Source: Halarcobacter mediterraneus (GTDB lineage Bacteria > Campylobacterota > Campylobacteria > Campylobacterales > Arcobacteraceae). Taken from it: DNA of 64,000 bases. Positions 7,103 through 11,127 of the stretch are shown piece after piece. Numbering within the stretch: position 1 is the first letter of the stretch; every line of letters starts with the position of its first letter. Made by a program: the position numbers and the translations under genes. The stretch covers positions 124,001-188,000 of the forward strand of contig NZ_NXIE01000005.1 of NCBI RefSeq assembly GCF_004116625.1, written 5' to 3'. Under the pieces are notes generated by a model. The model was not told the DNA's origin and did no database searches. It saw nothing but the letters and a program-made list of their open reading frames with translations.

Positions 7103-8239
7103 CTAATACTTACATCTTTTTTCATATTCTTCTTTTGTAAAGTCTACTAAATATGCTTCTTTAAAGCCATTTTCTAATAAAGAATCAAATACTTTACTTC
7201 TTTCTGATGATGATGTGTATGGCCCAAAATATATTTCTATTCTATTTTTAGAATCTCTACATAAGGATATTTTTTTATCAAAAGTCTCAATTTGATCTAA
7301 ATATGATTTATATAGATTTCCTTTTATTGTAGCAACATTAATAAAAGGTAAAAAAAGTTTACTATTCATAGTAGTAGAAGTTTCATCTTTTTCTTCAATA
7401 ATATTCTCTTCTTGGTTTTGTATTGTATTATTAACAATATCATTTACATTTAAAGGTTTTTGAGTGTCTATATTTGAAGAATTTCCTAAAGAAGTATCAG
7501 CAGTGTTTTTTTGTTTTTCTATTTCTTCTAAAAGTTGTTCTTTTTGTAGTTCAAACTCTTTTTTTATTTCTTCTTGAAATTTAATAAAATCTTCTTGTTC
7601 TTTTTTTATTAATTCTTGTCTTTGTGCTAGAAGTTCTTTCTCTTTTTCTAAAGCTTCTTTCTCTTGCTTTATTTTTTCTTCTTCTTTTCTTTTTTCTTCT
7701 TCAATAGCTTTTTTCTTTGCTTCTTCTTCTTTTCTTTTTTCTTCAGCAATTCTTTTTTCTTCAGCTTCTAATTCTTCTTTATTCATAATCTCAGTTTTAG
7801 TAAGCATTTGTAGTTTTTTATTAAGTTTATTTTTATCAATTTCTTCAATATTTACTGAGTCATCTTTTTTATTTACTTCTATAGGAGCAACTTTTTTTTG
7901 TTCTATTTTTGTCTCTTCTTCAAAGAAACCTGTAAGATACAATATGATTCCAATGGTTAAAACAACAGAAAGAGAAGCAATAACCCCTATTAGTACTCTA
8001 AAAAGTTTTGACTGCTTCTTTTGTATGGGAGCATCTTCAAAATCTTCATTTTCGATAGTTTGATTATTTTCTTCTTGCTTTTCTTCTGATATCTCCAGTT
8101 CTTCTTCAGTTTGTGAGGATTCATTCATTGGTTCTAAAGAGTCATCAACTTCTTCATTTTTACCAATTTCTTCTTGTTTAGTAGCATTTTGCTCTAAACC
8201 TAATTCCTCAATTATTTCTTCATCAGTTTTTTCTGCCAT
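7103..8239 (-). CDS. Membrane-anchored SPOR-like protein in the flgG unit
   Basis: 378 residues with a clear plan: an acidic cytoplasmic segment (1-75), one transmembrane helix (about 81-105), a long Lys/Glu coiled coil with EEKRKEEE-type runs (about 150-245), a flexible part, and a C-terminal globular region (about 295-372) containing RIEIYFGPYTSSSERSKVF and then AYLVDF. That last region has the size, the FGPY-like core and the alternation of a SPOR domain, which in other proteins binds denuded peptidoglycan strands. The gene lies three bases after the Lys/Glu-rich protein and 1.4 kb after flgG on the same strand, so a role at the cell wall around the motor is inferred. No known gene name is recognised; a TolA/TonB-like scaffold is an alternative reading of the coiled coil. 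Confidence 0.6.
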   Translation of the reverse strand: MAEKTDEEIIEELGLEQNATKQEEIGKNEEVDDSLEPMNESSQTEEELEISEEKQEENNQTIENEDFEDAPIQKKQSKLFRVLIGVIASLSVVLTIGIILYLTGFFEEETKIEQKKVAPIEVNKKDDSVNIEEIDKNKLNKKLQMLTKTEIMNKEELEAEEKRIAEEKRKEEEAKKKAIEEEKRKEEEKIKQEKEALEKEKELLAQRQELIKKEQEDFIKFQEEIKKEFELQKEQLLEEIEKQKNTADTSLGNSSNIDTQKPLNVNDIVNNTIQNQEENIIEEKDETSTTMNSKLFLPFINVATIKGNLYKSYLDQIETFDKKISLCRDSKNRIEIYFGPYTSSSERSKVFDSLLENGFKEAYLVDFTKEEYEKRCKY

Positions 8240-9638: not shown

Positions 9639-10007
9639 ATGAAAATTTTGATAGTTGATGATAGTTCAACAATGAGAAGAATTATTGGAAATGTTGTTAT
9701 GCAGTTAGGATTTGCAAAAGAAGATTTTGATGAAGCAGAAGATGGGGTAAAGGCATGGAAACTTTTAACTGAAGGGCAATATGACATAATTTTAACAGAT
9801 TGGAATATGCCTAATATGAATGGATTAGAATTAGTTAAAAAAGTTAGATCGGAAGGGAATCATCAAAAAGTTCCTATTATTATGATTACAACAGAAGGTG
9901 GTAAAGGGGAAGTTATTACAGCACTTAAAGCAGGTGTAAATAATTATATTGTTAAGCCATTTAATGCACAAGTTTTAAAAGAGAAGCTTGATGGAGTTTT
10001 AAAATAA
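9639..10007 (+). CDS. cheY: Chemotaxis response regulator CheY
   Basis: Single receiver domain of 122 residues. Acidic pocket D7/D8, phosphoacceptor D54 inside TDWNMPNMNG (identical in style to enterobacterial CheY), T84/T85 and K107 in KPF. Phosphorylated by CheA, it binds the flagellar switch and changes rotation. The next gene 31 bases on is a CheZ-like phosphatase, which strengthens the call over a generic receiver protein. Divergent from flgG. Confidence 0.93.
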   Translation: MKILIVDDSSTMRRIIGNVVMQLGFAKEDFDEAEDGVKAWKLLTEGQYDIILTDWNMPNMNGLELVKKVRSEGNHQKVPIIMITTEGGKGEVITALKAGVNNYIVKPFNAQVLKEKLDGVLK

Positions 10008-10038: not shown

Positions 10039-11127
10039 ATGAGTATGAGTCAAGAAGAAATTGAATCTCTAATGAATGGTTTAGATTTTGGAGAGGATAG
10101 TTCTAAAGAAGAGAGTTCAGAAGAAAACTCAAATGAAAAAGTAGAAGAAACTCCTCAAAAGAGTATGTCTGAAGATGATATAAATGATCTTATATCTGAA
10201 ACTGAAGATATAATAAATGATAAAGACTCTTCAGAAGAAGAATCAATAGATGATATTGTAAATAGTTTTGAGAAAGAAGAAGTTCAAAATGAAAGTCAAG
10301 AAGAAGTCCAAGAAAAAAATGAAGAAGAACCTTCTTTTGAGGAAGATGAAAAAAGTGTAGATGAGATTTTAAATCAAATAGAATCTATTCCTACAGAGAA
10401 TATTGAAGAAGAACCTACTTTAGTAAATGAATCTAATTCAGAGCCAACAGAAAGTAATATTGATGATATCTTAGCTTCTATTGAAGGTATAGAAGAAACT
10501 TCAGTAGAAACCACAGAAGATTCTACACCTATAGTTGCAAATGAAGAGATACAAAACTCTGAAGAAGATCTAGATCATAAAATCAATAGTGGAGTATTTC
10601 CTTTGCCTGTAGAACAAGATACAAAAGTTGTTAATCAGTTAAGTCAAGTTGCAAATGATTCTGAAGAAAAAGCTACCAAAATTTTTGATGTTTTAAGTAA
10701 TATATTAGATTATAACAATAATATTCAAAATGATGTTAAAGAATTAGCATCTTTTAATGAAAAGCAAACAGCAATGTTAACTTCATTAAATAATAAATTT
10801 CCGAATATAGAAGCTTTTAAACAAAATCTTGAACAAGCACAAAAAATGGGAAATTTTATTTCAGATATTAATGGCAAACTTGAAAATGGAAATATGGAAA
10901 TTTTTCAAGCAATGGAACTAATGCAATATCATGATATTAATAGACAAAAAATAGAAAGAGTAATGTCTGTAATTAGAAAATTGTCAGTATATTTAAACAA
11001 CTTGTTTGAAGACGAAGGACAACATGATGAAATTGCTGTAGCAAAACATATACATGGGGATTCTTCAACTGGTGATTTAGTTGGGGATGATGATTTAGAA
11101 GCTTTAATTGCAGAGTTTAATAAATAA
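10039..11127 (+). CDS. cheZ: CheZ-like CheY-P phosphatase with a long acidic repeat-bearing tail
   Basis: 362 residues. The C-terminal third (about 205-320) is a helical hairpin with a CheZ active-site pattern: in ELMQYHDINRQKIERVM, D299 and Q303 fall at the spacing of the catalytic Asp and Gln of E. coli CheZ (D143, Q147). The last residues DDLEALIAEF resemble the CheY-binding tail peptide of CheZ. The first 180 residues are very acidic and probably disordered; they start with MSQEEIESLM, close to the CheY-docking N-terminus of FliM, and repeat related motifs near 44, 69, 106 and 139. Remote CheZ homologues are known in Helicobacter (HP0170) and Campylobacter (Cj0700). The position right after cheY supports the function; the docking role of the repeats is inference. 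Confidence 0.8.
   Translation: MSMSQEEIESLMNGLDFGEDSSKEESSEENSNEKVEETPQKSMSEDDINDLISETEDIINDKDSSEEESIDDIVNSFEKEEVQNESQEEVQEKNEEEPSFEEDEKSVDEILNQIESIPTENIEEEPTLVNESNSEPTESNIDDILASIEGIEETSVETTEDSTPIVANEEIQNSEEDLDHKINSGVFPLPVEQDTKVVNQLSQVANDSEEKATKIFDVLSNILDYNNNIQNDVKELASFNEKQTAMLTSLNNKFPNIEAFKQNLEQAQKMGNFISDINGKLENGNMEIFQAMELMQYHDINRQKIERVMSVIRKLSVYLNNLFEDEGQHDEIAVAKHIHGDSSTGDLVGDDDLEALIAEFNK

Follow-up and report, generated by a model that had tools for sequence, protein, structure and literature searches.

FliM-like motifs repeated along the N-terminal tail of CheZ in Arcobacteraceae: a candidate multivalent docking tail for CheY-P

The cheY-cheZ locus

The window, i.e. the whole stretch of 64,000 nucleotides of Halarcobacter mediterraneus DNA that was analysed, carries a cheYZ pair in a flagellar locus, with the following genes and catalytic features:

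9639..10007, + strand: cheY (CheYz type), 122 aa, likely the partner of CheZ; ends 31 bases 5' of cheZ
10039..11127, + strand: cheZ, 362 aa, Campylobacterota-type CheZ
10600..11019, + strand: CheZ core, residues 188-327, a long helical hairpin of predicted helices 193-253 and 258-324 with pLDDT mostly >90
10933..10947, + strand: catalytic D299-x-x-x-Q303 (YHDINRQ), which aligns with FQDLTGQ of E. coli CheZ

The coordinates and length of the cheZ ORF, the presence of motifs in its product and the residues D299 and Q303 were all as described in the original prediction. The product is matched by NF041271 (Phos_CheZ) at E=6.6e-33 and by the Pfam family CheZ (PF04344) at E=2.7e-4, both under the curated cut-offs. 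Using a profile of the orthologous core, E. coli CheZ (1kmi_Z) was the best PDB match, but a weak one (E=0.027), while whole-protein phmmer against the PDB gave no match and VIA-align of the CheZ structure against the PDB was non-discriminating, returning generic long-helix matches only, with CheZ absent from the list. The core is conserved across Campylobacterota, D299 and Q303 are invariant in a 53-sequence orthologue alignment and, according to the hmmsearch alignment to E. coli CheZ and the predicted helices, D-x-x-x-Q lies within the long helical hairpin. Judged from its sequence, the ORF is assigned to a CheZ-type CheY-P phosphatase. A second short CheZ-like protein of ~ 121 aa is encoded in the same genome (L002 1534-1935; C4:11436-11855), with QHQDLHRQK, a C-terminal SDDELEELIKSM and no tail, and similar short second copies are present in many Arcobacteraceae genomes.

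The cheY product matches Response_reg at E=4e-29 and its nearest solved relative is H. pylori CheY (3gwg, E=9e-47). In the alignment to E. coli CheY the equivalents of W58, T87, K92, Y106, K109 and K119 are kept and K91 is replaced by Gly. Under a strict pattern, 46 Arcobacteraceae loci have cheY directly 5' of cheZ, an arrangement seen in none of the other-family loci (L197-L243 and L271 versus L244-L276). CheYz of Arcobacter has been predicted to be the probable FliM-binding CheY, kept from the ancestral F3 system, the remaining chemosensory core being F7 (PMC9321776). Also in the window, the ORF at 7103-8239 (- strand) encodes a protein whose N-terminus is acidic and which also has a probable membrane helix, a long coiled coil of charged residues and, at the C-terminal end, a domain of ~ 80 residues; no Pfam match above cut-off was obtained for it.

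FliM-like motifs in the CheZ tail

A 13-residue docking profile was derived from three outside peptides, namely the N-terminus of E. coli FliM, the C-terminus of E. coli CheZ and the N-terminus of FliM from the own genome, and a score of at least 14 was taken as a match. The profile selects exactly five 13-mers of the window CheZ, starting at residues 3, 43, 65, 102 and 136. These are listed below with the two weaker or C-terminal segments, conservation being that within the genus of the window:

10045..10083, + strand: N-terminal FliM-like motif, residues 3-15, MSQEEIESLMNGL; score 30.3; predicted helix 5-13
10165..10203, + strand: internal motif 2, residues 43-55, MSEDDINDLISET; score 21.0; conservation 0.91; predicted helix 45-63
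10231..10269, + strand: internal motif 3, residues 65-77, SEEESIDDIVNSF; score 17.0; conservation 0.77; predicted helix 71-78
10342..10380, + strand: internal motif 4, residues 102-114, EDEKSVDEILNQI; score 14.3; conservation 0.78; predicted helix 107-115
10444..10482, + strand: internal motif 5, residues 136-148, PTESNIDDILASI; score 15.3; conservation 0.72; predicted helix 141-147
10558..10587, + strand: short helix 174-183 (SEEDLDHKIN), a weaker look-alike beside the core; score 13.3 for residues 173-185
11080..11118, + strand: C-terminal docking helix, residues 348-360, VGDDDLEALIAEF; score 11.7; predicted helix 350-361

The FliM-type pattern S-x-x-E-phi-D/E-x-phi-phi is found in the N-terminal copy (30.3) as well as in the internal copies (14.3-21.0), and the Gln at -3, as in FliM, is restricted to the N-terminal copy. 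Motifs had been predicted near residues 69, 106 and 139; their presence stood but the register was a few residues off, the best one being I70-D-D-I-V--F, V107-D-E-I-L--I and I141-D-D-I-L--I, in line with I11-D-A-L-L of FliM and V205-D-D-L-L--L of E. coli CheZ. After this shift the acidic residue of the motif coincides with FliM D12, the +1 Asp that makes a key salt bridge to CheY K119 (PMC7012829). As for the C-terminal DDLEALIAEF, the helix predicted there is the one by which CheZ ordinarily docks, and its score is just 11.7; the orthologues examined end in the same D-x-E/D-x-L/I-I type. A likeness of 'IDDILASI' to PopZ/DUF2497 was considered and discarded, no Pfam match being found at E<=1.

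Isoleucines scattered along a long acidic tail could yield such look-alikes by chance. Consistent with this, when the own FliM peptide served as the sole probe in a BLOSUM scan of the window CheZ, only one internal motif, at residue 43, stood out (P=0.075), and taken singly the internal motifs of this protein are weak. Since the scan of a single protein flagged one internal motif only, the three-peptide profile and the orthologues were adopted, and the strength of the case lies in the number of copies and in their conservation. The other ORFs of the window gave 7 profile matches in 18,520 aa, corresponding to 0.14 expected per 362 aa. Against a chance origin, four matches of at least 14 were reached in shuffles of the inner tail at P=0.0005, with 0.34 expected.

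Conservation, position preferences and predicted structure

CheZ was detected in 97 of 104 Arcobacteraceae genomes and in 187 of 249 Campylobacterales genomes. Six of the seven CheZ-less Arcobacteraceae genomes (G143, G275, G276, G277, G281 and G304) are also without FliM, as if both had been lost together with flagella. The N-terminal motif is present in 82/82 Arcobacteraceae CheZ, which start with the consensus M-(S/G)-M-(S/T)-Q-E-(E/D)-I-E-x-L-M, and in 48/49 other Campylobacterales CheZ, which start with M-T-Q-E-(E/D)-L-(D/N) or near it; the exception, L079, reads L-L-S-D-E-E-L-A-E-L-M-G across the chosen start codon. Among the ORFs of the examined loci, 201 of 694 distinct N-termini score at least 18 and all of them are CheZ or FliM by sequence pattern.

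The internal motifs are distributed differently. In counts that come from related orthologues and hence represent non-independent trials, 81 Arcobacteraceae tails hold 2.19 profile matches per tail (0.33 expected) and 49 tails of other families hold no internal match (0.04 expected). With a simple pattern, the same 81 tails carry 2.68 motifs compared to 0.53 in shuffles, and 45 of the 49 other-family tails carry none. Going by the sequences compared, the N-terminal copy is phylum-wide and the internal array occurs in Arcobacteraceae only, a distinction absent from the original prediction.

Within the genus of the window (16 Halarcobacter-like genomes) conservation is 0.80 at motif positions versus 0.39 in the linkers (p=1e-13). 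A lack of conservation in orthologues had been named beforehand as refuting the idea; this outcome did not occur, the motifs, not the linkers, proving conserved. As to motif number, 4-5 internal copies are found in the genus of the window, 1-4 in the Aliarcobacter-like genus g2 and none in the single g9 genome, and as copies range from 0 to 5 within Arcobacteraceae no fixed number is essential. In the window genus, motifs 2 and 3 are 22-28 residues apart and motifs 3 and 4 mostly 20-25, the latter spacing being 37 in the window CheZ. Tail length and motif number are correlated (r=0.72). In the relative L243, a 102-bp (34-residue) tandem repeat of 2.2 copies multiplies the unit DIDELLN, hence the array can grow by duplication, and the sequence suggests a recent event in that lineage. 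At the other end of the protein, the C-terminal helix is less FliM-like in Arcobacteraceae than elsewhere (mean score 12.5 vs 20.4), as would be expected if docking had moved from the C-terminus to the tail.

In order to describe position preferences independently of the motif choice, windows of 62 less redundant tails were picked solely by hydrophobic residues at 0, +3 and +4, and 198 were found where 80.8 ± 8.1 were expected. At positions unused in the selection, +1 is acidic in 80% of them (35% background), -4 is Ser in 36% (11.5% background) and -5 is hydrophobic in 56% (22% background); +7 is hydrophobic in 60%. FliM likewise carries D at +1, S at -4 and L at -5, and overall the preferences at -5, -4, -1 and +1 follow FliM, while those for a hydrophobic residue at +7 and an acidic one at +8 are absent from it.

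AlphaFold, run on the window CheZ with 53 orthologues in the alignment, predicts the helices listed above, with one short helix per motif and linkers mostly below pLDDT 50, so that the tail is modelled as short helices on a disordered string. Taken together with the 2.68 motifs per tail, this one-to-one relation of helix and motif speaks against chance, as does the motif conservation, which brings that reading close to refuted; we consider it very improbable. That the disordered tail carries docking motifs of the FliM/CheZ type, as originally predicted, is hence well supported by independent probes, conservation, position preferences and predicted short helices.

What these helices bind is a separate matter. 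They might engage some other partner, or else the core of CheZ itself, through auto-inhibition or higher-order assembly, the FliM likeness being that of any acidic amphipathic helix. The phi..phiphi..phi spacing is generic for amphipathic helices and the +7 and +8 preferences, not being FliM-like, favour such an explanation. A CheY-CheZ fusion was folded for L201, where the genes are in frame and the cheY TAA stop was read as Gly merely to join the chains. This crude model, judged by pLDDT alone, gave no docking signal and hence no support for docking on CheY: the motif helices displayed no gain in confidence, and the N-terminal motif reached pLDDT ~ 47-59 compared to 75 in CheZ without CheY. 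On the other hand, the preferences at -5, -4, -1 and +1 match FliM, and in ten acidic tails of ChePep the same pattern is unenriched as a set (1.6 vs 1.88 expected). We regard this explanation as rather unlikely.

Proposed function and relation to known systems

The reading that we find most likely, with moderate confidence, is that of a multivalent docking tail for CheY-P, whose binding, dependence on phosphorylation and effect on signalling we infer. One ancestral and four added FliM-like amphipathic helices in the acidic N-terminal tail, plus the ordinary C-terminal helix, would each fold onto phosphorylated CheY at its alpha4-beta5-alpha5 face, which FliM also uses, with the +1 acid of the motif pairing with K116, the equivalent of CheY K119. 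A CheZ dimer, assumed from E. coli CheZ, would present ~ 12 sites. Such a tail would gather CheY-P at the phosphatase, increasing capture and dephosphorylation, and would compete with FliM for CheY-P.

Deletion of the N-terminal region of H. pylori CheZ left phosphatase function unaffected, and the function of the region was called unknown (PMC11237671). At least the ancestral copy is hence dispensable for catalysis and may serve targeting or competition instead. A targeting role, which this dispensability would fit (PMC11237671), is at the basis of another explanation, in which the receiver-like domain of ChePep is where the N-terminal and internal helices dock, giving a polar CheZ-ChePep cluster rather than a CheY trap. 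ChePep is required for polar localisation of CheZ in H. pylori (PMC7750401, PMC11237671). The own genome has a ChePep orthologue of 257 aa (L348 1501-2271; C8:36996) beside gmk, as in H. pylori, and the N-terminal domain of the family retains the K-P-F receiver signature. Yet the motif resembles CheY-docking peptides specifically, and the expansion of the internal copies took place where cheZ acquired cheY, and not chePep, as its neighbour. Furthermore, Lertsethtakarn and colleagues reportedly assigned polar localisation of H. pylori CheZ in 2015 to the central domain and not to the N-terminus. Docking on ChePep appears improbable.

The own-genome ChePep has a much shorter acidic middle than the ChePep of most other families. 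A loss of ChePep in Arcobacteraceae with the array as its substitute, suggested by a single-sequence search, was refuted by a profile search and by the own orthologue, and the ten-tail count spoke against ChePep tails carrying the same arrays in general. In the Hydrogenimonas-like genus g12, ChePep (L333, L334 and weakly L330) has acidic tails with repeated FliM-like motifs, e.g. LEEEDLEALLEDL and ISEEDLEALLEEG, possibly a second, independent array unlike ChePep elsewhere.

The proposed CheY-P docking tail has relatives in known systems. E. coli CheZ belongs to the same enzyme family and its C-terminal peptide ASQDQVDDLLDSLGF has the phi-D-x-L-L--L pattern in a docking helix on a flexible linker, but it holds a single C-terminal copy, with neither an N-terminal tail nor an N-terminal copy; the C-terminal helix of the window CheZ occupies the same place as the E. 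coli SQDQVDDLLDSLGF. Complexes of this peptide are represented by the PDB entry 2fmf and its relatives. The N-terminal CheY-binding segment of FliM (MGDSILSQAEIDALLNGD, 1f4v; own FliM MAEFLSQDEIDALLDIA) shares the N-terminal position and the S-x-x-E-I-D/E-x-L-L/M core, whereas FliM is a motor switch protein in which each chain has a single copy, and it is the C-ring that arrays the copies, not the chain itself. Other Campylobacterota CheZ, such as the orthologue of H. pylori (NF041271), have the N-terminal MTQEELDALM and the C-terminal DDIEALI but differ by a tail of ~ 55-105 residues with essentially no internal motifs (49 sequences). CheA of Borreliales, with a duplicated P2/CheY-binding domain, likewise multiplies CheY-binding sites within one chemotaxis protein, in that case as two folded domains on a kinase and not as short helices on a phosphatase (PMC10542144).

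Docking helices at the C-terminus of CheZ and at the N-terminus of FliM are already known. In the openly licensed PMC literature searched, neither a CheZ with repeated motifs for CheY docking nor one with an N-terminus resembling that of FliM was found described. What appears new from the sequences is that CheZ has a FliM-like N-terminus throughout Campylobacterota and that this motif has been multiplied in Arcobacteraceae. More tentatively, Campylobacterota CheZ would mimic the FliM N-terminus and Arcobacteraceae would have multiplied this mimic into a CheY-P sponge of 5-6 sites competing with the motor switch. This sponge might have assumed the role of ending the signal when the F7 core replaced F3 while cheYZ stayed.

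The phylum-wide FliM-like N-terminus of CheZ is the broader finding and, being present in nearly every Campylobacterales orthologue examined, it provides a precise hypothesis for the N-terminal region of H. pylori CheZ. The Arcobacteraceae array would exemplify how a signalling switch can be tuned by the number of short docking helices that a phosphatase carries, and also how a replaced chemosensory core can be coupled to an old motor.
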